From a virus: a stretch of 22,795 nt of DNA. Made by a program: the position numbers and the translations under genes. Numbering within the stretch: position 1 is the first letter of the stretch; each line of letters begins with the position of its first letter. The stretch is taken from positions 1 through 22,795 of the IMG/VR virus record IMGVR_UViG_3300042898_000010, one strand, 5' to 3'. Positions 4,555 to 22,795 of the stretch are shown piece after piece. A model generated the notes under the pieces. It was given only the letters and a program-made list of their open reading frames with translations. It made no database searches and was not told where the DNA came from.

Positions 4555-5904
4555 ATGTCACAAGTAATCTTAGAAAAATTGGACGCAATCGAAGCTAAAC
4601 AAGCTGAGAGCGTTGCGGCTGTAGAAGCCAAAATCCCCGCTGCTGTTGAAGCTATCAAAGCTGAATTCAGCGAAATGGTTGCTGCTTTGGAAGCAAAAGT
4701 TTCTTCTATCGAAGCTCCTGCTCTTATCAAAGCTCCTGCCAAAACAACTCGTCAAGATGTCAATCGTTCTGTTAAAGAGCAATTGGTTTCTTTCTACAAA
4801 GGCAACGGTCGCGTAGAGAAAGAACTGCAAATCTTTGCTGACGAATCACAAATGCAAGCCTACCTGAACGAAGCTTCTGCTTTGACTGCTGGTGGTGATG
4901 GCAAAGGTGGTCGCACAGCTTATGACCCAGTGTTTGCTGCACTGCGTTTGGCTAACCCATTGCGCGGTGTTTCACGCACTGTTGCTACTGATGGTTCTTC
5001 TTATCAGTTCCGTGTCAAAACGGGCAACGCTGGCGCTGCTTGGGGTTATGCAATTCAAAACAACGGTGCGACTACAACTGAAGACACAACAATCTGGCAA
5101 TTAGTTTTGCAAGATTTGAATGTGCAGTTCCCTATTCGTACTGCTGCCCTTGATGACATTGATGGCTTGGAAGCAAATGTGGTTGACGACATGTTGGCTG
5201 AATTTTCACAGTCTGAAGCGTTGTCAATGATTCAGAATAACGACCAAGCAGCACAATCTGCCACTAACCCATACGGCGGAACAAACGGCTTGCGCGGTTT
5301 AGACCAATATGCTGGTTCTAACGCTACATACGCTGGTGGTACTTGCTCTACAGCGGCATTTGGTACAAGTGGTACAGGCTCTAGCACTGGTTTGCATAGC
5401 TTGGCTACTTATGACCAGACCACTACTAACGCTGCTACTGTTGGCGCAAACAACATCACCTATACCGATGTTGTGAATTTCATCTATCAATTGCCACAAC
5501 AATACTGGACTGCAAACGCTAAGTTTGTGATTAGCCCAATCTTGTTGAACGCAATTCGTGCATTGAAAGACAACAACGGCGCACCTATCTTCAATCGTAA
5601 CGAAGGTTTGTCTGTCGAAGGTATTGTTGGTCAGTTGATGGGCTTTGATGTTGTTGTGAATAAGTATTGCGATACTCCTTCACAAACAACGGCAGGTTCT
5701 GCTGGTACTAACAGTTTGTACCCAATGTTCTTTGCTGATTGGAGCCGCTTCCACACAATCGTGGACCGCTTGAACATGGTTATGCGCCGTTATGACCAGA
5801 CATTGCCCGGTTTCATCACCTTCTACGGTGAGAAGCGTTTGGCAACATCTGTTCGTGATCCTAATGCTGGTGTGCGTTATCGCTCAACTGGCACAGCGAC
5901 CTAA
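4555..5904 (+). CDS. Major capsid protein 1, HK97 fold with delta domain
   Basis: A 449-aa shell subunit. Residues about 1-60 are an Ala/Glu/Lys-rich coiled coil (AAVEAK, VEAIKAEF, ALEAKV), followed by a helical linker to about 105. This matches the scaffold-like delta domain that the S78 protease removes in HK97-type phages. The mature part begins around SALTAGGDGKGGRT (about 108-121) and carries FAALRLANPLR, FPIRTA, NNDQA, GLRGL and, near the end, PGFITFYGEKRL and VRDP. Its start lies two bases after the protease stop with AAAGGTT upstream. A strong intrinsic terminator directly follows the stop, so most late transcripts may end here. The next gene encodes a paralogue without the delta domain. 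The exact cleavage point cannot be read from the sequence. Confidence 0.92.
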   Translation: MSQVILEKLDAIEAKQAESVAAVEAKIPAAVEAIKAEFSEMVAALEAKVSSIEAPALIKAPAKTTRQDVNRSVKEQLVSFYKGNGRVEKELQIFADESQMQAYLNEASALTAGGDGKGGRTAYDPVFAALRLANPLRGVSRTVATDGSSYQFRVKTGNAGAAWGYAIQNNGATTTEDTTIWQLVLQDLNVQFPIRTAALDDIDGLEANVVDDMLAEFSQSEALSMIQNNDQAAQSATNPYGGTNGLRGLDQYAGSNATYAGGTCSTAAFGTSGTGSSTGLHSLATYDQTTTNAATVGANNITYTDVVNFIYQLPQQYWTANAKFVISPILLNAIRALKDNNGAPIFNRNEGLSVEGIVGQLMGFDVVVNKYCDTPSQTTAGSAGTNSLYPMFFADWSRFHTIVDRLNMVMRRYDQTLPGFITFYGEKRLATSVRDPNAGVRYRSTGTAT

Positions 5905-5957: not shown

Positions 5958-6986
5958 ATGACCATCACTAAAAAAATCTTATCTGCTATTCAAGAAACAA
6001 TTCAAACAGGTCAAAGAGTTTCAATTGATTTGCGTGAAGCATCTGCAATCACAGGTTCTGGTGATGGTGTAGGTGGTCGCACATTTTTTGATAACGCTTT
6101 TGCTGCTCTGCGTTATGCAAACCCGATTCGCGAGATGTCGCGTGTTATCCCTGCTGCTGGCTCAAGCGTTCAGTTTGTTGCTAAGACAGGTAATGCGGCA
6201 AATCAAACAAACCCATTTGGTTACACATTCACTCCAGACAGTGGTACACCAAATACAAACACATCAATTTGGCAATTGCCAACTCGCGTTATTACAGCGC
6301 AACTGCCGATTCGTACAGCAGTAATGTCTGATGTAAATTACTTGAACGAAACAATTGTTGAAGACTTGATGCTAGAGTTCGCGCAAATTGAAGGCGCTTC
6401 AATGGTGTTAAACAATGACCAAGCTGGCTCTACGACTACAGTAAACGGTGCTACAAGCGGTTTGCGTGGTTTGAACATGTACACAAGTGCAGCAGCATCT
6501 GCTTATGGCACAAGTGGCACTGCAATTACAAATGGTATCCATTCAATTGCAACATTTACACAAGCAGCGGCAGCGGTTACATATTCTGACATTACAGATA
6601 TGACTCGTTTGTTTCCTGCTCAATATTGGAATTTGCCCGGCACTGCATGGATGATGCACCCGCAGACAGTTCACGAATTGCGTAATTTAGGTGGCGCAGC
6701 AGCAATTAAACAGTTTGCTGAAACTGGTGATGATGATGGCGGTGCTGGTGTTAACATTTTTGGCTTCCCTGTGATTGCTAATCCAAACATGCAAACTACA
6801 GGTGCTGGCAAGTTTAATATTTACTTGGCAAACTGGCCCCGTTTTGTGACTATTGCTGATGTGGAAGAAATGACCATTCAAGCAATGGAGCAGACAGCCC
6901 CCGGTTTTATTACCCTATTTGCTGAAAAGCGTTTGGTAAGTACTGTCCGTGACCCATTTGCTGGTATTCGTTTAGTTGGCGTGTAA
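5958..6986 (+). CDS. Second capsid protein, HK97 fold without delta domain
   Basis: A 342-aa paralogue of the preceding capsid protein. Its Arg41 aligns with Arg120 of the first protein, so it starts about 79 residues later and lacks the coiled-coil scaffold domain. Shared blocks in the same order include GGRT, FAALR, ANP, LPIRTA, NNDQA, GLRGL, PGFIT, EKRL and VRDP, so it spans the whole HK97 fold. Start is supported by AAGGA seven bases before the ATG, just after the terminator. It may form a special position such as the pentamers (as T4 gp24 does beside gp23) or be a minor lattice component; that is inference. Another reading is that this is the main shell protein and capsid 1 is the co-assembly partner. 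The connector gene follows after three bases. Confidence 0.85.
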   Translation: MTITKKILSAIQETIQTGQRVSIDLREASAITGSGDGVGGRTFFDNAFAALRYANPIREMSRVIPAAGSSVQFVAKTGNAANQTNPFGYTFTPDSGTPNTNTSIWQLPTRVITAQLPIRTAVMSDVNYLNETIVEDLMLEFAQIEGASMVLNNDQAGSTTTVNGATSGLRGLNMYTSAAASAYGTSGTAITNGIHSIATFTQAAAAVTYSDITDMTRLFPAQYWNLPGTAWMMHPQTVHELRNLGGAAAIKQFAETGDDDGGAGVNIFGFPVIANPNMQTTGAGKFNIYLANWPRFVTIADVEEMTIQAMEQTAPGFITLFAEKRLVSTVRDPFAGIRLVGV

Positions 6987-8463: not shown

Positions 8464-8961
8464 ATGGCTTTACCAAATAAAATTTTGCCGGGTTTTAGTG
8501 CTGCGCTATATGCTCAACCGGGAACAACTCCAACTCCATTGACATTGACTCAATTGTCTTTGGTCGCCAGCGTTGCACCACTTGCCATTTCTGGCAATCT
8601 GGTTCAAGTTGAAGCTGTACCAGCTTTTGGTCAGGATGATGCAGTAGCTAACTTTTCAGTCGCTGGTTCACGCCAATCTGACAAGATTCCTACTCAGTCA
8701 GCACCTACATCAATGACGATTACTGCTGCTTGGAACCCCGGCGATGCAGTGATTAACACATTGCTGCGTACAGATGCCTACTCTGGCGTGGTTGACCGCA
8801 CCTTTGTGATTAGCGCAACTGAAGGCGCAAACATTGTGTATTACGCTTTTGTTGGTCGCGTGTCTCAATTCCAAATTGATGCTGCACCCGGCGCTGAAGC
8901 TAAATGCACATTTACAGTTCATCCTCGCGGCAACCTGTTCGGTTGGTGCAACAACGCTTAA
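8464..8961 (+). CDS. Tail tube (major tail) protein 1
   Basis: A 165-aa protein placed between tail terminator and tail chaperone, the standard site of the major tail protein whose hexamer rings form the tube. It begins with LPGFSAALY and has two strongly conserved blocks shared with the next gene: VEAVPAFGQDDAVANF to SMTIT (about 50-83) and GRVSQFQIDAAPGAEAK near 124-140, then HPRGN. AAGGAAAC precedes the ATG. The tube role is inferred from context, size and beta-rich composition; no searchable motif was tested. It could also be a tube-associated decoration subunit, with gene 2 the actual tube, or both may build a mixed tube. Confidence 0.75.
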   Translation: MALPNKILPGFSAALYAQPGTTPTPLTLTQLSLVASVAPLAISGNLVQVEAVPAFGQDDAVANFSVAGSRQSDKIPTQSAPTSMTITAAWNPGDAVINTLLRTDAYSGVVDRTFVISATEGANIVYYAFVGRVSQFQIDAAPGAEAKCTFTVHPRGNLFGWCNNA

Positions 8962-8973
8962 AGGAGCATCAAA

Positions 8974-9495
8974 ATGGCAATTCCTAGTTTAGTTCTACCC
9001 GGCTTTAGTGCCGCGCTATGGATGCAAAATAGCGCCACTCCTACGCCACTTACTCCTTCTAACCTTTCTGTTTGGGCGGCTCAAGTAGCAACCATTTGCG
9101 GTACTGCTGTTGGCGGTACAGGCGCTTCTGGTCAACAATTAAATGTGGAAGCAGTTCCCGCATTTGGTCAAGACGATGCTGTTGCCAACTTTATGGTTGC
9201 TGGCTCACGCCAATCGGACAAAATCCCAACTCAGTCTGCTCCTACCAGCATGACAATCACATCAGCTTGGAATCCTAGCGATGCCGCCCTGTTGTTGATT
9301 CGTGGTGATTCAACTAATGGCGTGACAGACCGTACTTTTGTTATTACAGCTTCTACATCTGCAACCAGCACTATTGCTTATGCATTTAATGGTCGCGTAA
9401 GTCAATTTCAAATTGATGCGGCTCCCGGTGCTGAAGCTAAGTGTACTTTCACTATTCACCCACGGGGCAACCAGTACGGTTGGTCTAACCCATGA
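8974..9495 (+). CDS. Tail tube (major tail) protein 2, paralogue
   Basis: A 173-aa close paralogue of the preceding tail protein, 12 bases downstream with a strong AAAGGAG site. The N-terminus (LPGFSAALW), the block from VEAVPAFGQDD to SMTIT, AWNP, and the C-terminal GRVSQFQIDAAPGAEAK to HPRGN are nearly identical between the two, while residues about 15-50 and 85-110 differ in sequence and length. In the 38 codons from VEAVP's Glu to the Thr of SMTIT I count one amino acid change but about 22 synonymous differences, so the pair is old and under purifying selection. Its stop overlaps the next ATG (ATGA). The function is probably the same as, or complementary to, protein 1. Confidence 0.75.
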   Translation: MAIPSLVLPGFSAALWMQNSATPTPLTPSNLSVWAAQVATICGTAVGGTGASGQQLNVEAVPAFGQDDAVANFMVAGSRQSDKIPTQSAPTSMTITSAWNPSDAALLLIRGDSTNGVTDRTFVITASTSATSTIAYAFNGRVSQFQIDAAPGAEAKCTFTIHPRGNQYGWSNP

Positions 9496-9944: not shown

Positions 9945-10409
9945 ATGACAAGACTATCTTCTGCTCTAGGCAGCACCTACGCTTCTGATTCCCTGCGAAC
10001 AAAGACTTTTGAATTGGGTGGACACACATTTAAGGTTCGTGTCCCACTGACAAGAGAGATGGAATTAATTCAAGAGCGTATAGAAATTATTGACGAATCT
10101 GAATACAAAACCAGATTTGAAAAAATGACAACCTCATTCAAGGACAGCACTGCGCTTGAAGGTATTGTCGTTACAGATGATGATGTGATTATTGAAGGCC
10201 GGTCCACACGGGAACTGGTAAGGTCCATCATGCAAATGGAAAACCGCACAGTTGAATACATCAAGTTGATTGTTCCTGAACATGACAATCTTGATGATAT
10301 TACTTACAAAGACATTGATGAAGAGTGGCCTTTCCAAGTTCAATTGGAAGTTCTGAACAAGATTTCAGAGGCCATTCAGCCGGGATATAAGGACTCCAGA
10401 AAAAACTAA
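9945..10409 (+). CDS. Tail assembly chaperone, zero-frame product (G-like)
   Basis: A 154-aa protein in the position of lambda gpG, upstream of the tape measure. It starts with AAGGAACG before the ATG. The N-terminal part has a strand-rich start (TFELGGHTFKVRVPLTRE, about 22-39) followed by charged helices, as in tail chaperones that derive from a targeting domain. The last codons read AGA AAA AAC TAA, which is an in-frame A AAA AAC slippery heptamer ending one base before the stop. The downstream -1 frame is open for 114 codons, so a fused longer product is expected. The short form would be made in excess. Role: escorting tail tube subunits and the tape measure during assembly. Confidence 0.8.
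   Translation: MTRLSSALGSTYASDSLRTKTFELGGHTFKVRVPLTREMELIQERIEIIDESEYKTRFEKMTTSFKDSTALEGIVVTDDDVIIEGRSTRELVRSIMQMENRTVEYIKLIVPEHDNLDDITYKDIDEEWPFQVQLEVLNKISEAIQPGYKDSRKN
10400..10406 (+). other. Programmed -1 ribosomal frameshift site A AAA AAC
   Basis: The heptamer AAAAAAC lies in the correct phase (A from the AGA codon, then AAA, AAC), directly before the TAA stop at 10407-10409. A one-base backward slip continues as CTA ATC AAG in a frame open to 10750. An 11-bp stem with one bulge can form at 10430-10456 (GCCA plus GAGCGTA with TATGCTC, A, TGGC, loop TATT). It begins about 23 bases after the heptamer, farther than usual for a stimulator. Frameshifting at this gene pair is conserved in lambda-like phages (lambda G/GT). 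Confidence 0.85.
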
Positions 10410-10750
10410 TCAAGGACATTCGCCTCCAAGCCAGAGCGTATATTTATGCTCATGGCGGGTGTCCTGATGAAGTTCCTACGGATGACATGCGAAATATTGA
10501 GATTATGCTGTCCGATGGCATGCTTGGAAACAAAGCTATTTTGGTAGCTTTAAGCTCCTTGACTACGGGCAATTTAAACTCGAAAATGGCTAAAACGGCA
10601 TCACCTTTCCAAATGAAAGATGTGTTGCCATCTACGCATGAATATATTGTCCCGCCGTTGAGCGAAGAAGAAAAGAAAGCAGAAGTCAATAAACGATTGA
10701 TGTCTTTCTTGAAAACTAGACCGGGTGCGGAGGAATTTTTGAAAGAGTGA
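10406..10750 (+). CDS. Tail assembly chaperone -1 frame extension (T part of GT)
   Basis: This frame has no ATG until 10487, but it is open from the slippery site, so it is read as the C-terminal part of a G-T fusion: 154 plus 114, about 268 residues. The extension begins LIKDIRLQARAYIYAHGGCPDEVP and shows helices and an acidic/basic C-terminus (LSEEEKKAEVNKRLMSF). In lambda the T part binds the tail tube protein while G binds the tape measure. A separately initiated 87-aa form from 10487 lacks a good ribosome binding site. The gene ends one base before the next ATG. Confidence 0.8.
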   Translation, partial: LIKDIRLQARAYIYAHGGCPDEVPTDDMRNIEIMLSDGMLGNKAILVALSSLTTGNLNSKMAKTASPFQMKDVLPSTHEYIVPPLSEEEKKAEVNKRLMSFLKTRPGAEEFLKE

Positions 10751-10751
10751 A

Positions 10752-11243
10752 ATGGTCTACATACCAGAAAAGCTTACCTTTGAGCTTGAAGGTTTTGCTG
10801 AGTTTGAGCAGCAGCTTAGAGAAATAGCTGACGGCTTTCGTGGTGATTTAGTAGCCCGTAATACTCTTGTCCCTGCCGCCAAGATAGCTATGGAGTCAGT
10901 TTATAACTCCGCAGTGTCTAGAGCGCCTGTAGGCGATAAGCCTAGGGACGATAAAAACCCTTTTCACATGCGAGACACCATCCGGTTGGATGCCCGTATT
11001 CCTAACGAAAAGGACAAGCGAAGCGAGTATGTCAATGAAACAGATGCAGCCATTGCTGTAGTTTCTGTCAAGAAAAGTGCTGTATCTCTTGCTCAAGAAT
11101 TTGGCACATCAAAAATACCAGCGCGTCCATTTTTGCGTATATCTTTACAGCAAGATTCTGGAACAGTGTTAGACGCTTTAAAATCACAATTGGGTAGTCG
11201 AATACCAGATTACGCAGCAAAGCTGGCTAGAAGGAAAAAATAA
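10752..11243 (+). CDS. HK97 gp10-like tail component
   Basis: A 163-aa protein with the pattern of the HK97-gp10 / putative tail-component family: an early FEQQLREIADGF segment, a helix with MESVYNSAVSRAPV, then HMRDTI, and a late EFGTSKIPARPFLR motif that is the family hallmark. In HK97-like genomes this gene lies before the tail terminator gene. Here it is between the chaperone and the tape measure. Its exact role is not settled; it is thought to act at the neck or in tail completion. The last codon's stop TAA overlaps the tape measure ATG (TAATG). Confidence 0.75.
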   Translation: MVYIPEKLTFELEGFAEFEQQLREIADGFRGDLVARNTLVPAAKIAMESVYNSAVSRAPVGDKPRDDKNPFHMRDTIRLDARIPNEKDKRSEYVNETDAAIAVVSVKKSAVSLAQEFGTSKIPARPFLRISLQQDSGTVLDALKSQLGSRIPDYAAKLARRKK

Positions 11244-13651
11244 TGGCTTCTCAAAATATTGCTAGATTGGGCGTTGTCCTTGGATTGGACACTGCTGAAT
11301 TTACCGCTTCCATTGACAAGGCAATTTCAGAAAATGCCAAGCTAAAAAATGCTATTCGCAAAGATAGCAATGCTGCTGCGGCTGAGATTGTTAATCTGAA
11401 ACATGCCACAGATGACTACGGTAAAACGCTTACCAAAGTTCAAATGATGGAGCGAGAGACAACTTCTGGGCGCTTTATGAATGCGTCTAAGGAGATGAAG
11501 CAGCAGCTTCTTGAAAGAGCTAAAGCTTATGATGCTGTTGCAACTGCAACAACAAAAGCTGTTGATGCTCAGTTTAAAATGAACGCCCAGCAGAAGATGG
11601 GTTTAACCTATCAGACAACCGACCTTGTTACTTCTCTGGCTGCTGGGCAAAATCCATTTATTGTTCTGTTGCAACAGGGTGGTCAATTAAAAGACCAGAT
11701 GGGTGGCCTTGGCAACATGTTCAAAGCCATTGGCACTATCCTAACTCCAATGCGATTGGCTATTGGCGGGGTTACCGCTGCCTTTGGTACGCTGGCTTAT
11801 GCAGCTTATGCTGGTAGAGCAGAGTTTGACAAACTAAAAGACACAATTACTTTGACAGGTAATTTTGCTGGCGTAACTACTGAAAAGTTTTATTCACTAT
11901 CTACTGAATTAAGCGGTAGGACAAACGCTTCTCTTGGAACAACAAAAGATGCTTTAAATGCTGTTCTTGCTTCTGGAAAGTTTACGGCTGCATCAATTAG
12001 TTCTGTCACTCAAGCAATTATTTCATATTCACAAATTTCTGGAATAGATGCCAAGGCTGCTGCCGACAAGTTAATGAGTGGACTAGATGGGACGGCATCT
12101 GGAGCTAGAGCTTTAAATAAGGAAATGAACTTCCTTACTCTTGAGCAATACAAACAAATTGAAGCACTTGAAAAGGCTGGAAAACTACAAGATGCGGCAA
12201 AAGTTGCCTCTATTGCTTTAAATACTCAATTGGCTGCACAGCGAAGAGAGCTTGGCTATCTTGATAAAGCATGGGAAACCACAACCAATGCGCTAAGTAA
12301 GTTTTGGAACCTGTTAAAAGAAATTGGTAAGCCAGAAACAACAGACCAAGTTATTGCCCAGCTTGATAGACAAATTCAAGCTGTACAAGCATCTGTTAGT
12401 AAAAGTACAGGTGATAGCCCGTTTGAGAAAGAACAAAGAAAACAACTTCAATTATTAAAAGACCAAAGGGAAGCAATTCTTGAAACTGAGCGTTTGAAAG
12501 CTCGTTCAGTAGCAGCTAGAGATGTTGGTGATGCCAAACAAAAAATTGAAGATAGGGCTTCTGCCGGCGGCATTGATAAAGAAAAACAAATTATTGCTGC
12601 TACTGAAAAAGCCAAAGCAAGTATCAAATACACACAAGCTCTTGCAAGTGCCAATGAAATAGGAAAAATAGAATTAGAAGCTACAAAACAAATTGAAGAA
12701 AAAAGGGCAGAATTTAAAGCTAAAAGCGAAGTAGATAAAAGAGCATTTGGCGGTCTTCTTGCAAAACAACTTGCTGCTGAAGAGCTTGATATTGAAGTAA
12801 AGAAAAACGAAAAGATTCGTTTGCTTCGTCAAAAACAAATGCTTACCACATATCAATTTGGGGTGGAGCAGCAGAAAACATTTGATGATGAGATGACTGC
12901 AGAATATCTTTTGCAGGAAAGCATTAAACAACAAATTCGAGATAAAACAAAATCTTTGGAAATGGACAAAGAAGATTTAATACTCAAGAACCGAATGATT
13001 TATGCCACTGAAAAAGAAGTACAGTTGGCTCAACTTTCATTAAAGTATCAAAGAGAAAAAGAAAAGCCATTTGCAAATATTGAGGCACTTAATCAACAAG
13101 AAGCAATTGAAAGATTTAATATAGAACTGCAAGACACAATGAAAAAGACCTCGGAAGTCTTTGACAGTGTATGGGGCAACATGGGTTCTGCTATTGATAA
13201 ATTTGTCAGAACCGGCAAGTTATCAATGAAAGATTTTGCCCGTAGTGTCATTCAAGATTTGATTGCCATCCAAATGAAGGCAGCAGCGTTGTCTTTCTTG
13301 CGGATGATGTTTGCTCCCACAATGGGTCCAACAATAGATGGAGGTGGTGCATTACCATCCAGCTTTAATCAATACTTGGCTCCTAGGGCTGCTGGTGGCC
13401 CTGTATCTGGCAACACGCCTTACCTTGTTGGTGAAAAAGGTCCAGAGTTGTTTATGCCTTCTGGTTCAGGAACAATCATTCCAAATGGCGCAACAGGTCA
13501 AATGGGTGGCGTTACCAATGTCACCAACAACTACATCAACGCTATTGATACCAAATCGTTTGAGGACCGCTTGCTTGGCAGTCATAATGCTGTTTGGGCT
13601 GCAAATCAATATGCTGGCAAATCATTAGCAGTTAACAGGGGCCGCGCATGA
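11243..13651 (+). CDS. Tail length tape measure protein (lambda gpH-like)
   Basis: An 802-aa, largely helical protein that would set tail length and pass into the cell envelope during DNA entry. Residues about 119-160 carry LTYQTTDLVTSLAAGQNPF and LLQQGGQLKDQMGGLG, a signature of lambda/P22-type tape measures (TMP_2). A hydrophobic, Ala/Gly-rich segment follows (about 165-190). Long charged coiled coils fill the middle, a lambda_C-like segment near 645-680 contains FVRTGKLSMKDFARSVIQDLI, and the C-terminus has GGPVSGNTPYLVGEKGPE, common in tape measures. At the usual 0.15 nm per residue a tail near 120 nm is predicted. A siphovirus is likely because no contractile sheath gene is seen. AAGGAAA precedes the start. 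Confidence 0.93.
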   Translation: MASQNIARLGVVLGLDTAEFTASIDKAISENAKLKNAIRKDSNAAAAEIVNLKHATDDYGKTLTKVQMMERETTSGRFMNASKEMKQQLLERAKAYDAVATATTKAVDAQFKMNAQQKMGLTYQTTDLVTSLAAGQNPFIVLLQQGGQLKDQMGGLGNMFKAIGTILTPMRLAIGGVTAAFGTLAYAAYAGRAEFDKLKDTITLTGNFAGVTTEKFYSLSTELSGRTNASLGTTKDALNAVLASGKFTAASISSVTQAIISYSQISGIDAKAAADKLMSGLDGTASGARALNKEMNFLTLEQYKQIEALEKAGKLQDAAKVASIALNTQLAAQRRELGYLDKAWETTTNALSKFWNLLKEIGKPETTDQVIAQLDRQIQAVQASVSKSTGDSPFEKEQRKQLQLLKDQREAILETERLKARSVAARDVGDAKQKIEDRASAGGIDKEKQIIAATEKAKASIKYTQALASANEIGKIELEATKQIEEKRAEFKAKSEVDKRAFGGLLAKQLAAEELDIEVKKNEKIRLLRQKQMLTTYQFGVEQQKTFDDEMTAEYLLQESIKQQIRDKTKSLEMDKEDLILKNRMIYATEKEVQLAQLSLKYQREKEKPFANIEALNQQEAIERFNIELQDTMKKTSEVFDSVWGNMGSAIDKFVRTGKLSMKDFARSVIQDLIAIQMKAAALSFLRMMFAPTMGPTIDGGGALPSSFNQYLAPRAAGGPVSGNTPYLVGEKGPELFMPSGSGTIIPNGATGQMGGVTNVTNNYINAIDTKSFEDRLLGSHNAVWAANQYAGKSLAVNRGRA

Positions 13652-14283: not shown

Positions 14284-14939
14284 CAACTATTAATGCGGTT
14301 ACTGGTTCGCAGATTAACCATGCAGAATTTGTAAGACTTACAGTTGGAACTGCTGCGACCGTTTATACATTTTGTAATGCGGCTGCACCTGTTACGGTTA
14401 GCGGTATTACATTTTCAAATCTTGGTGCTTTGCTTAATGTTGGTGATGTTCAGCGCGACATTAAATCTACTTCTGACGATATGACCATTCAGTTAACGGG
14501 CATTGACCCAACTAACATTGGCATTATTCTAGGCAACCAGATTAAAGGCTCATTGGTAGAGGTTTGGAGAGGTTTTCTTGATTCAAATAACCAAATCATA
14601 ACGACACCTACTACACAATTCTTTAAACGCTACCAAGGTATTATTAGCAGCGTTTCAATTACAGAAGATTTTAATTCCCAATTGAGAACCCGCATAGCAA
14701 CATGCTCTATTGCCTGTTCATCAATGAGAAGGGTTTTGGAAAACAGGTTATCTGGAATTAAAACAAATCAAAATAGTTGGCAATTGTTTTATTCTGGTGA
14801 CACATCAATGAATCGTGTTGCTCAAATTTCAAATACTTATTTTGATTTTGGTTCGCCTCCAATGATGCAAACACAAGCAAGCGAAACAACAATTACAAAA
14901 GATACGACAGTTTATGAAAACGGCAAAGTCATAGCATGA
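14280..14939 (+). CDS. Tail tip hub protein, DUF2163-like (probable)
   Basis: A 219-aa protein. The N-terminal half is beta-rich with paired strands (INHAEFVRLTVGTAATVYTF, then GDVQRDIKSTSDDMTIQLTG). The C-terminal part has MRRVLENRLSGIKTNQNSW and a YSGDTSMNRV segment. These resemble DUF2163/BR0599-type tail hub proteins found before tail-tip genes. The call is by overall look and position. It overlaps both neighbours by four bases (ATGA). The conserved Cys residues near 135-145 could be structural; unlike lambda gpL I cannot claim an iron-sulfur site. Confidence 0.55.
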   Translation: MTTINAVTGSQINHAEFVRLTVGTAATVYTFCNAAAPVTVSGITFSNLGALLNVGDVQRDIKSTSDDMTIQLTGIDPTNIGIILGNQIKGSLVEVWRGFLDSNNQIITTPTTQFFKRYQGIISSVSITEDFNSQLRTRIATCSIACSSMRRVLENRLSGIKTNQNSWQLFYSGDTSMNRVAQISNTYFDFGSPPMMQTQASETTITKDTTVYENGKVIA

Positions 14940-15382
14940 TAAGACCCGCAACAAGATACGACATACCTAGATTATTGGAAATTGTGGAAGCTTACGCTTA
15001 TGAAAACCCAATTAAAACGCTTGGCAAGCCTGATAACCACAACCCGCAGCATGTTGAACAGTTGTTGTTCAGCATCATGTTAGGAAAAGGTTTTATCTAC
15101 ATTGATAAGGATTTAAGGGGGGCCATCATTGCTGTAAAGCAAAACAATGTCTGGTGTCCTAAAGTTAAAGAATTGCATGAGCTTTTATGGTGGGTTGAGC
15201 CTGAATACAGAGATGGGACATTGGGCGGTCGATTGTGGAAAGCTTTTGACCAAACAGGAACTGAAATGTTAGAGCGTGGAGACATTGATTTCATAGTCAC
15301 ATCAATCTCTTCTAAAGGCCCGTGGATTGATTACACTAAGCGTGACTACGAAGCAGTTACAGCAAGTTTTGTGAAGGAATAA
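14936..15382 (+). CDS. GNAT-family N-acetyltransferase-like protein
   Basis: A 148-aa protein with a GNAT layout: N-terminal IRPATRYDIPRLLEIVEAY, a central strand IYIDKDLRGAIIAVKQN, then motif A, WWVEPEYRDGTLGGRLWKAF (about 85-104), which would hold the acetyl-CoA pyrophosphate. Compared with the usual RxxGxG, the first glycine is Thr95 while Gly97 and Gly98 remain, so binding may be altered. It is translationally coupled (ATGA) to the tail hub gene and lies two bases before the J-like gene, so it belongs to the tail operon. Possible roles are acetylation of a tail or host protein. The substrate is unknown; the fold could also be used structurally. Confidence 0.8.
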   Translation: MIRPATRYDIPRLLEIVEAYAYENPIKTLGKPDNHNPQHVEQLLFSIMLGKGFIYIDKDLRGAIIAVKQNNVWCPKVKELHELLWWVEPEYRDGTLGGRLWKAFDQTGTEMLERGDIDFIVTSISSKGPWIDYTKRDYEAVTASFVKE

Positions 15383-19022: not shown

Positions 19023-19511
19023 ATGGCGATTTTCAACCGTAATACACTCGCGCAAGTGAGTGGCTTTGACAATCCAATTCTCGCTGGAGAACTGGTTTAT
19101 AACCAAAATACCTATTGGAATTTGACGTTTACGAATTCCAATACAAACCTACCTATCAATTTGACGGGCGCGACAATCAACGCACAGATTGTTCGTAGGC
19201 AAGTAACAAACATCATTGACACTCGCAATGGTCTAACTTTTGACATTGCAGACTACAACCCGACACCGACCGCTATTCCGCTTACCGTATCCAACATTGT
19301 TGCGGCTTCAGGCACTTGCACATTGGTAATTGACTCGACCACTTGGGGACTGCTAACGACAGATGCCCAACTTGATATTAACGCTACAAGTTGCGTTGGT
19401 TACTCAGGTCGGGTCAAGGTTTCATTTCCTGCAAGTGGCTCAACGCCCGCTGATGACCAAATCATATTTTTGTTGTTCTTGATACGTTCTGACGGAATCG
19501 TGGTTATATGA
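19023..19511 (+). CDS. Tail/baseplate-like protein upstream of fibre (probable)
   Basis: A 162-aa beta-rich protein. The N-terminal part (GELVYNQNTYWNLTFTNS, then PINLTGATINAQIVRR) looks like an immunoglobulin-like or BppU-like N-terminal fold that often anchors fibres to the tail tip. The C-terminus contains SGRVKVSFPASGSTPADD and a hydrophobic strand IIFLLFLIRSDG. AGGGAA is five to six bases before the ATG. Its stop overlaps the ATG of the collagen-like fibre gene (ATGA), which supports a fibre-attachment role. The assignment is structural guesswork plus context. Confidence 0.55.
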   Translation: MAIFNRNTLAQVSGFDNPILAGELVYNQNTYWNLTFTNSNTNLPINLTGATINAQIVRRQVTNIIDTRNGLTFDIADYNPTPTAIPLTVSNIVAASGTCTLVIDSTTWGLLTTDAQLDINATSCVGYSGRVKVSFPASGSTPADDQIIFLLFLIRSDGIVVI

Positions 19512-22500
19512 CGCAGGGCATTATTGTTTCCCCCGCTAATAGGGGCGTACAGGTCGTTGTAACAGACGAGAACAACGTACAACTCTTGGTTGATAGCAAC
19601 CGAGGTGTTAGCCTTGAAATCGTGCCACAGCCCCGTATAGAGGTTTTAATTGACAAAGGCGTAGAGGGCGCACAAGGGCCAGTAGGACCACAAGGTCCGG
19701 TCGGCCCACAAGGGCCACAGGGAACAGCGGCAACGGTTGCGGCAGGTACTACGACCACAGGCGCGGCAGGTACAAGCGCCATTGTCACTAACTCAGGCAC
19801 ATCAAGCGCGGCAGTATTTGATTTCACCATACCGCAGGGTATTACGGGTGCTACAGGCGCGGGGGTCGCTGTAGGCGGCACAACAGGTCAAGTGTTGGTC
19901 AAGGCAAGTAACGTCAACTATGACACCACTTGGGCAACCATCACAGGAACTTTGGTTTATCAGGGTTCTTGGAACGCATCTACAAATACGCCTACGCTGA
20001 CTTCTAGTGTTGGCACAAACGGTTATTACTATGTTGTTGGCACAAGCGGTTCAACAAATCTGAACGGCATCACCGATTGGGTTGTAGGCGATTGGGCTAT
20101 CTTTAACGGCACTATTTGGCAGAAGATTGACAACACCGACCTAGTGTCATCTGTTAACGGACAAACAGGCGTAGTGGTGCTGACGGCATCTAGCGTAGGT
20201 GCGTTAGCGATTGCAAACAACTTGTCTGATTTGGCTGATGCGCCAACGGCTAGAACTAACTTAGGTTTAGGTACTGCGGCAACGCAAAACAGCACAGCAT
20301 TTGCTACTGCGGCTCAAGGTGCAACAGCAGATACAGCATTACAGACTGTTACGTCTGCCGATGGAAGCATCGTAGTTTTACAAACTGGCACAAATATAGA
20401 TTTGGCAGTATCTGCGGCATCCCCTGCTTCTACATTGCTTACGCAAGTTCGTAATACAACAGGTGCAACCTTAACCAAGGGTACTGTTGTTTATATCTCA
20501 GGTGCAACGGGACAGATTTCTACTGTATCAAAAGCGATTGCATCAAGTGATGCTACATCTGCTCAAACTTTGGGCATGATTACCACTAATTTGGCAAATA
20601 ACTCAAATGGTTATGTAACTGTTTTTGGTTTGCTTCAAAACATAAATACATCCGCCTATACCGATGGCGCACAGTTGTATTTAAGCGGTACTGTTGCGGG
20701 TGCGGTAACGGCTACAAAACCATCTGCGCCTATTCATCTAGTGTATGTTGCTGTTGTTGAATACGCACACCCAACGCAGGGTAAGTTGTTGGTTAAGGTT
20801 CAAAACGGGTATGAGTTAGCCGAAATCCATGATGTGTCGATTGTCAGCCCTACAACAGGTCAAACGCTTGTTTACGATTCTGTTACAGACCTTTGGAGCA
20901 ACAGCAATGCGCCTACCATCACAGGCGGCACGATAAACAACACAGTCATTGGCGGCACAACCCCTGCGGCTGGTACGTTTACTACAGTAACAACACCTAT
21001 TGTTGGGGCGGCTACTGGTTCATCTACAACTGGACTTGATTTAAACGTCAATAGCAAAGCGCAAGCACGTATTGTTGAGATTGGTGATGGAACTAGACCA
21101 CTGGTCATCAATGGCGGTTCAGCAGGTGGAGCGCAAATTCCAGGCATCAGTGTTCCTGCAATTTTGGGTATTAGTGCTGGTGGCGGCAACCCTGTCAACT
21201 TTTATACAAACGGGCGCGTAACAACACAGCAATTCCAAGTATCCCACACCGCATCAGCAGTCAATTACGTTCAGGTGACTGGTGCGGCTACTGGTGGAAG
21301 ACCAACTATTAGTGGGCAAGGAAGTGATGCTAATGTTGACTTAAACTTTTTATCCAAGGGAACAAGTGGCGGTCATATATTTACTGCTAACAATGCAATT
21401 CAAGCAGTTGTTTCTCCCACAGCATCAGCAGTTAATTATGTTCAACTGACAGGAGCAACCACTGGCGGCAATGTTCAAATTTCAGCGCAAGGTACTGATG
21501 CAAGCACTGGAATTAGCCTTGTAAGTAAAGGTGGCGGTGGTTCGGTATGGAAAGGTGATGGCGGCGTTTACTTCCAAAACAATGCGGCTAACAATTTATT
21601 CTCTGTTGAAAACACATCATCTACAGTCAACAGATTAACGGCTACTGGTAGTGCCACGGGTTCAGGGCCACGCTTGTTTGCCCAAGGCTCAGACACCAAC
21701 ATAGACCTAAACCTGACTACCAAGGGTACTGGTGCGGTTAGATTTAATACAGGGGGAGGACTTGGGTTTAGAGTATCTGAGGCATTCCTAACAGGCACAG
21801 CAGTAAACTACATTGATGCTTCTGGAAGACAAACAGGTCTTGGGCCAGTATTATCTGTTAACGGTTCAGATACAAACGTTCGGTTTAATATTACTTCTAA
21901 GGGTTCAGAGGCTGTTGGTATATACACAAACTTAGCTAATCAACTACAATTAAACATTGCCAACACAACCAGCGCAGTCAACTACCTACAAGCCACAGGC
22001 GGTGCTACAGGTTCAGGCGTTACCTTATCAGCTCAAGGTTCAGACACAAACATTGACATCAACCTAGTACCAAAGGGTACAGGCACTACTGTCTATACGG
22101 GTGGCGTAACAATCAATGGAACGCTGACTGCTCAGAATGAAGTGCTGAAGGGTACTGGGCAGAATTTAATTTTAAGAAGTCAAGCATTAACAACAGCGCC
22201 TTGGACATTAAATGCAAGCCCCACAACGGCATCATATACAGACCCATTAGGCGGTAGTACAGCCACTCAATTTACAACCTCGGCAGGTAATAGCGGCGTA
22301 TACCAGTTTATTTCTTCCTCAAGTGGTCTAACACTAACATTTTCTGTATACATAAAATACATATCTGGAGATGGAACGGTTTCACTTGGAAACCAAGCAA
22401 ACCCATCAACAGGAACATTGGTATTTAATTCTTCTGCTGGAACAATTACTTCTGCTGGCGCAAGTTTGACCGCATCAGGCGTTGTTAATGCGGGAAGTGG

Positions 22501-22795
22501 GTGGTATCGTGTTTGGGGTACGTTTGTTACAACTGGCACATCGTTGGCAATGGTTGTTTACTCAAACAACGCATCAGCATCTTCATTTGGCGCTTGGGGT
22601 GTTCAGTATGAAATTGGCAGCACTCTAAACACCTACATCCCCACAACCACAACAGCGGTTTACGGAACCCCATCCCTATCCTTTTCAGGTGTATCAACAA
22701 TAGGATTAGAGTCTAACGGCTCACTCTTTGTTCAACCTGCTGGTACTGGTGCATTACAAGCACAAGCCACTACATCATCTGCTACTGGTGGTAAT
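19508..22795 (+). CDS. Collagen-like, repeat-containing tail fibre (partial, 3' open)
   Basis: An open frame of 1096 codons runs off the right edge, so the C-terminus is missing. The ATG overlaps the preceding stop. Domains in order: beta-rich start (1-50); eight Gly-X-Y triplets of the GPVGPQ type (51-74), a collagen-like trimeric stalk; a segment with NNLSDLADAPTARTNLGLG (about 238-256), as in Phage_fiber_2-type proteins; a beta domain (about 300-460); a GGTTPAAGTFTTV motif near 480; five related units of about 57-65 residues (582-878); and a jelly-roll or lectin-like segment (about 886-1055) starting LILRSQ and ending NTYIPTTTTAVYG, a common phage carbohydrate-binding pattern. This would be a second receptor-binding fibre next to the J-like protein. 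Codon use is Ala/Thr/Gly-heavy, as expected for fibres. Confidence 0.88.
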   Translation, partial: MTQGIIVSPANRGVQVVVTDENNVQLLVDSNRGVSLEIVPQPRIEVLIDKGVEGAQGPVGPQGPVGPQGPQGTAATVAAGTTTTGAAGTSAIVTNSGTSSAAVFDFTIPQGITGATGAGVAVGGTTGQVLVKASNVNYDTTWATITGTLVYQGSWNASTNTPTLTSSVGTNGYYYVVGTSGSTNLNGITDWVVGDWAIFNGTIWQKIDNTDLVSSVNGQTGVVVLTASSVGALAIANNLSDLADAPTARTNLGLGTAATQNSTAFATAAQGATADTALQTVTSADGSIVVLQTGTNIDLAVSAASPASTLLTQVRNTTGATLTKGTVVYISGATGQISTVSKAIASSDATSAQTLGMITTNLANNSNGYVTVFGLLQNINTSAYTDGAQLYLSGTVAGAVTATKPSAPIHLVYVAVVEYAHPTQGKLLVKVQNGYELAEIHDVSIVSPTTGQTLVYDSVTDLWSNSNAPTITGGTINNTVIGGTTPAAGTFTTVTTPIVGAATGSSTTGLDLNVNSKAQARIVEIGDGTRPLVINGGSAGGAQIPGISVPAILGISAGGGNPVNFYTNGRVTTQQFQVSHTASAVNYVQVTGAATGGRPTISGQGSDANVDLNFLSKGTSGGHIFTANNAIQAVVSPTASAVNYVQLTGATTGGNVQISAQGTDASTGISLVSKGGGGSVWKGDGGVYFQNNAANNLFSVENTSSTVNRLTATGSATGSGPRLFAQGSDTNIDLNLTTKGTGAVRFNTGGGLGFRVSEAFLTGTAVNYIDASGRQTGLGPVLSVNGSDTNVRFNITSKGSEAVGIYTNLANQLQLNIANTTSAVNYLQATGGATGSGVTLSAQGSDTNIDINLVPKGTGTTVYTGGVTINGTLTAQNEVLKGTGQNLILRSQALTTAPWTLNASPTTASYTDPLGGSTATQFTTSAGNSGVYQFISSSSGLTLTFSVYIKYISGDGTVSLGNQANPSTGTLVFNSSAGTITSAGASLTASGVVNAGSGWYRVWGTFVTTGTSLAMVVYSNNASASSFGAWGVQYEIGSTLNTYIPTTTTAVYGTPSLSFSGVSTIGLESNGSLFVQPAGTGALQAQATTSSATGGN
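21251..22141 (+). repeat. Five diverged ~58-aa tandem repeats in tail fibre
   Basis: Units begin at about 21251, 21422, 21617, 21794 and 21968. Each reads roughly S-A-V-N-Y-x-Q-x-T-G, then an x-A-Q-G-S-D-x-N-(I/V)-D-(L/I)-N stretch and S/P/T-K-G-T/G-G. Spacings are 57, 65, 59 and 58 residues. They are clearly related at protein level but diverged in DNA, so they are old rather than recent slippage copies. They probably form successive beta-rich shaft segments. Confidence 0.8.

Follow-up and report, generated by a model that had tools for sequence, protein, structure and literature searches.

A probable programmed -1 frameshift in a lambda G/GT-like tail chaperone gene pair, with a slip site that varies among viral relatives

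Results

Gene neighbourhood and anatomy of the locus

The window analysed here is the whole stretch of a virus record, 22,795 bases long, and it carries a head and tail module. From 5' to 3', the module begins with terminase, portal, an ORF that we take by resemblance to be a head protease, two capsid-like genes and a head-tail connector. It continues with two major-tail-like genes, two small ORFs, the pair of reading frames described below, an HK97 gp10-like gene, the tape measure gene and a distal tail gene. The pair thus sits between the major tail genes and the tape measure gene, as in the gene order of lambda G/GT. The features of the locus and the flanking tail genes are as follows.

8464-9495: two major-tail-like genes (phrog_158, weak matches, E-values 4e-4 and 7e-6)
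9945-10409, + strand: frame-0 gene, 154 aa, putative lambda gpG-like or HK97-like tail assembly chaperone (ORF; weak fold match to 2OB9)
10389-10393, + strand: Shine-Dalgarno-like AAGGA, 6 nt 5' of the heptamer, a possible 5' stimulator
10400-10406, + strand: slippery heptamer A_AAA_AAC, with Lys AAA as P-site codon and Asn AAC as A-site codon (sequence, conservation)
10407-10409, + strand: frame-0 stop codon TAA, immediately 3' of the heptamer
10406-10750, + strand: 114 codons and a stop codon in the -1 frame, coding for the T-like domain (ORF, conservation, selection)
10487-10750, + strand: 87-aa ORF from an ATG within the -1 frame, a shortened reading of the T domain
11243-13651: tape measure gene

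The 3' end of the frame-0 gene reads AGA AAA AAC TAA, which places A_AAA_AAC in phase. From there the -1 frame can be read for 114 codons up to its stop codon at 10748-10750. The initial annotation had described this arrangement and a fused product of 268 aa, and the sequence agrees on the phase, the open frame and the sum of 154 and 114 residues. It had also left one base between the heptamer and the stop codon, but TAA follows with zero bases between. In the window, gene calling from ATG start codons would shorten the second domain by 27 of its 114 codons. We counted 19 in-phase heptamers of the form X_XXY_YYZ, with Y being A or T, among 24 ORFs with 7,361 codon positions. A_AAA_AAC occurs once among them and is the only one that abuts its stop codon, the next closest heptamer being 57 nt off. 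The raw sequence AAAAAAC is rarer than expected in the window, with 4 copies on both strands versus a mean of 11.6 in shuffles. As a raw sequence the heptamer is no rarity, and the case for the site is built on its phase, its place and its conservation.

A stable stem begins 6 nt downstream of the heptamer

The sequence 3' of the heptamer is predicted to fold into an outer stem of 12 bp, which begins 6 nt after the heptamer and encloses a 7-bp hairpin.

10413-10424, + strand: 5' arm of the main stem, a putative stimulator (fold, paired changes; the outermost pair has an alternative register)
10434-10440, + strand: 5' arm of the inner hairpin (paired changes AU to GC and GC to AU)
10445-10451, + strand: 3' arm of the inner hairpin (paired changes AU to GC and GC to AU)
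10454-10465, + strand: 3' arm of the main stem (fold, paired changes)

The 70 nt downstream of the heptamer have a folding energy of -29.6 kcal/mol (z -4.9), and none of 200 shuffles was equally stable. For the 56 nt from +6, the energy of -27.4 kcal/mol was equalled by 1 of 7,580 stepped 56-nt windows, and this one starts at 10411 within the same hairpin. The 22 other gene ends tested gave energies from -2.6 to -18.5 kcal/mol. Many studies of -1 frameshifting focus on structures located 5-9 nt downstream of the slip site (PMC5009743, in excerpt), and the +6 stem of the window falls inside this range for X_XXY_YYZ sites. The initial annotation placed the nearest strong stem about 23 bases downstream and considered it far for a stimulator. 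That distance applies to the inner hairpin (10434-10451) only, and the concern is removed by the long outer stem, which starts 6 nt after the heptamer.

The -1 frame is kept in all relatives compared, and the slip site varies in type

Scans of viral contigs yielded 177 loci, two of the scans contributing the best 80 of 358 and the best 80 of 102 relatives, and the addition of one isolate, Methylophilaceae phage P19250A, gave 178 loci in all. Five loci were dropped, four cut by a contig end and one with an early stop. The 173 loci readable across the junction and the window make up 174 rows. The -1 frame is open beyond the frame-0 stop in all 174; the distance from there to its own stop is 338-374 nt in 171 rows, and the contig ends earlier in the other 3. 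No row has the two frames fused or separated by stops, an arrangement that the initial annotation had named as speaking against a frameshift.

The sequence at the junction falls into several types. A_AAA_AAC stands directly before the stop codon in 73 of the 174 rows (TAA 53, TGA 18, TAG 2), and in 7 more it reads A_AAA_AAC TCC TAA, with the stop one codon further. G_GGA_AAC directly precedes the stop in 11 rows. An AAG-type site directly before the stop is found in the remaining 83 (82 AAG, 1 AAA), P19250A among them, and comprises G_TCA_AAG (62), C_TCA_AAG (13), T_TCA_AAG (3), T_TTA_AAG (2), C_GAA_AAG (2) and G_TCA_AAA (1). The frame-0 stop of these 83 rows is TAG or TAA, and TGA in none. 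The stop therefore abuts the slip codon in 167 of the 174 rows and comes one codon later in 7. All 91 sites ending in AAC are full X_XXA_AAC heptamers, whereas 80 of the 82 ending in AAG lack a full heptamer, the exceptions being the two T_TTA_AAG sites. Conservation of the heptamer, which had been proposed as a check, is thus found at the level of the site class and the -1 frame, with the full AAC heptamer kept in 91 of the 174 rows and an AAG-type site in 83.

We sorted the rows by the protein motif after the slip site into type A (85 rows including the window) and type B (the remaining 89, namely the P19250A-like loci and part of the G_GGA_AAC loci). If the adjacent stop is ignored, the next frame-0 stop comes 63-144 nt further on in type A and 3 or 12 nt further on in type B. 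An alignment of 54 representatives of the second domain has 11 invariant columns, and the window and P19250A share 43% identity in the first domain and 27% in the second. P19250A (L045, 6001-6812 of KX815270) is annotated with two separate hypothetical coding sequences, the second from its own ATG; this second coding sequence is likely the T domain minus its first codons.

A scan of genome contigs with the chaperone alignment returned 81 pattern matches, none of them a relative. A second scan, with the portal protein, brought up two MAG contigs, L180 and L181, from a collection other than that of the loci above. Their bins are named Gammaproteobacteria and Alphaproteobacteria, and a bin name is no evidence of the host. 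L180 has G_GGA_AAC TAA, the T domain in the -1 frame and the stem core at +6, but it adds little and is no independent test because its chaperone is 89% identical to that of another locus in the sample, L094. In L181, a tblastn search with the chaperones gave no match, and the pair was spotted by eye in the ORF list: A_AAA_AAC TAA, a T-like ORF in the -1 frame (also by eye) and a 14-bp stem from +6 with a longer loop. The stability of this stem is modest (z -1.83 and -2.39). A fold limited to 64 nt gave no stem (z -0.03), the 14-bp stem appearing in a longer stretch.

Codon choice at the site and history of the site types

Type A has 29 distinct upstream sequences, in which Lys at the site is encoded by AAA in 27 of 27 and Asn by AAC in 29 of 29. 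Gene-wide, counted over all type-A rows with near copies included, Lys is encoded by 715 AAA versus 719 AAG and Asn by 453 AAC versus 220 AAT. The third base of the preceding Arg codon is A in the 27 sequences with AAA and G in the 2 with GGA, so that a silent base tracks the heptamer type. At codon -6, AAG is found in 26 of the 29 sequences, with Lys codons elsewhere split about 50:50. The upstream AAGGA is accordingly enriched, and its role may perhaps be that of a stimulator.

In a quick tree of 92 chaperones, from which the site residues had been left out, the G_GGA_AAC rows L055 and L058 nest in a branch of 49 A_AAA_AAC rows (SH-aLRT 99), and four changes of site type are enough to explain the tree. 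The tree has open forks, long branches and an arbitrary root. In E. coli, tRNA-Asn shifts only in tandem and tRNA-Lys is able to shift alone (PMC5009743, in excerpt). The occurrence of AAC sites only in full heptamers, and of AAG sites mostly without them, fits this rule. A point against the frameshift reading of the window, from the same source, is that ribosomes of E. coli shift far less readily on A_AAA_AAC than on A_AAA_AAG.

Purifying selection in the -1 frame ahead of the internal start codon

As a measure of selection we used the synonymous share of single-base codon differences, counted over the first 81 nt from the slip site in pairs of sequences that differ at 20 positions or fewer. 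This stretch lies upstream of the ATG at 10487 in the window. These shares are descriptive only because pairs of related sequences are not independent. For the -1 frame, frame 0 and the +1 frame, they were 0.81, 0.14 and 0.10, respectively, in type A (58 distinct sequences) and 0.78, 0.14 and 0.05 in type B (43 distinct). The first 35 nt alone gave 0.77 (type A) and 0.79 (type B) in the -1 frame. As yardsticks, the end of the frame-0 gene in its own frame gave 0.81 and 0.73, and the interior of T 0.86 and 0.63, for types A and B, respectively. This pattern of differences indicates that purifying selection on the codons ahead of the internal ATG of the window is confined to the -1 frame and, on sequence evidence, that the stretch from the slip site to the first possible start codon is translated in that frame.

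Paired changes in the downstream stem

In the minimum-energy fold, 2 to 7 unpaired nt separate the site from the first pair in all 96 distinct sequences. Cells changed on both sides of a pair numbered 49 in type A (56 distinct sequences) versus 14.2 in shuffles, and 26 in type B (40 distinct) versus 9.4; neither value was reached by any of 500 shuffles. When the 3' partners were displaced by 1 to 3 columns, the paired cells fell from about 93% to at most 57%. Two of five covariation measures lay within the shuffle range, namely double-change pairs (283 and 90 of 500) and further pair types (41 and 427 of 500). As drawn, the outermost type-A pair is unpaired in 47 of 56 sequences, and inner type-B pairs are unpaired in 11 to 16 of 40. 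Comparison of the sequences thus points to a stem with paired changes beyond those in shuffles.

Stability was controlled with 200 synonymous recodings per sequence that keep the -1 protein. The mean z was -3.55 for type A, with none of the 200 recodings as stable in 34 of 56 sequences, and -2.99 for type B, with none as stable in 13 of 40. The weakest stem, in L172, had a z of -1.14, with 30 of 200 recodings equally stable. Hence, some relatives, L172 and L181 among them, have a stem of unexceptional stability.

Weak fold resemblance of the frame-0 protein to a tail assembly chaperone

Profiles of Pfam, PHROGs and NCBIfam gave no meaningful match of either protein to a named family, chaperone families included, the best stray match being YopX in 3 of 66 members (E-value 0.00054), and a PDB sequence search with both protein profiles found nothing relevant. 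The AlphaFold model of the frame-0 protein has a pLDDT of 84.3, and its first-ranked match in the PDB is 2OB9, the HK97 tail assembly chaperone. The match is weak: the Foldseek E-value is 0.73, the TM-score by target is 0.59, and the VIA alignment has a Z of 6.0 (under 8) with an r.m.s.d. of 3.6 over 100 residues and 11% identity. The second rank is 5IR0, a PICI-like ORF of unknown function, with a Z of 5.9, and the third has a Z of 2.9. In the viral fold library, this model had two matches with E-values up to 0.001, both uncharacterised proteins, and entries named tail assembly chaperone appeared first at E-values of 0.2 and above. The T domain model is helical (pLDDT 84.5, pTM 0.52), and a fold search of the PDB with it found nothing, the lowest E-value being 2.2. 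The position before the tape measure gene, together with the weak match of the predicted fold to 2OB9, makes a tail assembly chaperone the likely, although unproven, identity of the frame-0 protein.

Discussion

Programmed frameshifting and its alternatives

We interpret the locus as a lambda G/GT-like tail chaperone gene whose translation involves a programmed -1 frameshift, and on the sequence evidence this is very probably the correct reading. It draws on the anatomy of the locus, its conservation and its gene neighbourhood, on selection specific to one frame, on paired changes in the stem and on a weak fold resemblance. The initial annotation had proposed the same reading, and it holds up: the site class, the -1 frame and the stem are kept, the gene order fits, and the closest fold, weakly, is that of HK97.

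The context of the stop codon, named in the initial annotation as a possible influence on efficiency, may play a part, given the adjoining stop in 167 of 174 rows. A different account would have a single peptidyl-tRNA slip while the stop codon waits in the A site, so that competition with the release factor sets the rate and the heptamer is accessory. The near-constant adjacency of stop and slip codon favours this account, as do the 83 rows with A_AAG or A_AAA sites, in which a full heptamer occurs only in the two T_TTA_AAG, and A_AAG alone is a known shift site (PMC5009743, in excerpt). However, every one of the 91 AAC-ending sites lies in a full heptamer, which is expected if tRNA-Asn shifts only in tandem, as the same excerpts report for E. 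coli. Moreover, a sense codon separates heptamer and stop in seven rows, and a stem spaced at +6 is well placed for slippage while the A site holds the last codon. We consider slippage of a single tRNA against the stop codon unlikely. Another possible origin of the downstream protein is a separate gene with its own start at the ATG at 10487, as in the annotation of P19250A. The window has an ATG at +80, and of 47 distinct type-B sequences 42 have one at +35 and all 47 have one at +107. But the start codons vary between the types and also within type A (+80 in 34 and +98 in 52 of 61 distinct sequences), the codons upstream of the starts, including the first 35 nt, show purifying selection in no frame but -1, and the Shine-Dalgarno-like sequence before 10487 is, by eye, just GGA. 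We rejected an independent start as the main reading because of the variable start codons and the selection upstream of them, and we hold it to be very improbable, although a shortened T product from an internal start could be made alongside.

The six consecutive A residues at the junction raise two further explanations. RNA polymerase could slip on this run and produce mRNAs with an altered number of A residues, in which the frames are fused. Relatives have GGGAAAC or TCAAAG at the junction, and the lack of a long homopolymer there, together with the RNA stem with paired changes kept just 3' of the site, led us to reject transcriptional slippage as the main reading; its probability is extremely low. 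Homopolymers are also a usual place for indel errors, and a sequencing error, or decay of the gene, might have split one long ORF. However, the two frames stand in this relation in all 174 rows, which come from many contigs and include several site types. In practice this refutes an error or a pseudogene and leaves this explanation a negligible probability.

Proposed mechanism and relation to known systems

From the evidence for programmed frameshifting we infer that the shift occurs, as well as its rate, the tRNA movements and the role in tail assembly, which would be as follows. Most ribosomes on 9945-10409 would stop at the TAA at 10407 and release the 154-aa gpG-like protein. A minority would be held at A_AAA_AAC by the stem-loop from +6, perhaps aided by the AAGGA 6 nt upstream. 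Here tRNA-Lys and tRNA-Asn would slip back one base together, and reading would continue in the -1 frame to 10750. The shifted product, about 268 aa long, would resemble gpGT and carry the T domain as an extension. If lambda is a guide, the tape measure protein may be coated by G molecules in large number and GT molecules in small number, the T part recruiting the major tail protein.

The locus shares with lambda gpG/gpGT the two ORFs before the tape measure gene, the second ORF in the -1 frame, slippage near the end of the first ORF and the expectation of a short and a long product (PMC5009743, in excerpt). Unlike lambda, it has A_AAA_AAC instead of G_GGA_AAG (the lambda heptamer is taken from the initial annotation), with a stop codon adjoining the heptamer and a long conserved stem starting at +6, and profile searches match its proteins to no named chaperone family. 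As to HK97, its tail assembly chaperone (2OB9) is the best, although weak, PDB fold match of the frame-0 protein, with the low identity given above. The excerpts of PMC5009743 also list G_GGA_AAC and A_AAA_AAC for tail genes of the haloarchaeal viruses HCTV-1 and HCTV-2. These two heptamers are common to the family of the window, but the viruses are archaeal, and the comparison is one of heptamers. For the P19250A-like relatives, which have N_TCA_AAG or similar sites, the counterparts are the single-tRNA shift sites A_AAG of IS1222 and the Bacillus cytidine deaminase gene (PMC5009743, in excerpt). Unlike in those, A_AAG here adjoins a stop codon, precedes a stem and lies in a tail chaperone gene.

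The mechanism is already well known, and the protein family is unnamed in the libraries searched. Among the papers found by literature searches, no title or abstract opening describes a frameshift for P19250A-like phages. The portions of PMC8163748 consulted contain 'frameshift' twice, for another phage and in a reference, and lack 'chaperone', and those of PMC8024684 contain neither word. The analysis suggests a likely function for two hypothetical proteins common to many IMG/VR phages, 358 relatives having passed one scan. The most notable feature of the locus is the variation of the slip site within one family, from AAC heptamers for two tRNAs to AAG sites beside a stop codon. One protein pair has presumably kept the -1 shift while its slip site changed between the AAC heptamer and AAG, and this natural series allows slippage by two tRNAs to be compared with slippage by one in the same genomic setting. 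A more speculative idea, prompted by the sequences, is that the slip codon is tied to the adjoining stop so that the G:GT ratio follows the supply of release factor, and that the P19250A-like branch lost the heptamer and uses a single tRNA-Lys shift at A_AAG before the +6 stem. We judge it distinctly unlikely; if true, the family would offer a -1 analogue, coupled to the stop codon, of the +1 switch of RF2.

Further observations on the module

A search for tRNA genes across the window found none. The two capsid-like proteins encoded in tandem (4555-5904 and 5958-6986) are 40% identical over 343 aligned positions, and the first of them, the one copy that was scanned, matches Phage_capsid of Pfam. 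In P19250A, the capsid gene is followed by a hypothetical gene of similar size. The tandem major-tail-like proteins (8464-8961 and 8974-9495) are 66% identical to each other, and L181, by eye, has two as well. In the window the HK97 gp10-like gene (10752-11243) separates the chaperone pair from the tape measure gene, and in P19250A a gp10-like gene precedes the chaperone. An acetyltransferase-like gene (14936-15382; phrog_1249, E-value 3e-11) is found within the tail module. The long ORF at 19508-22795 has a short collagen-like GPxGPx stretch close to its start and may encode a tail fibre.
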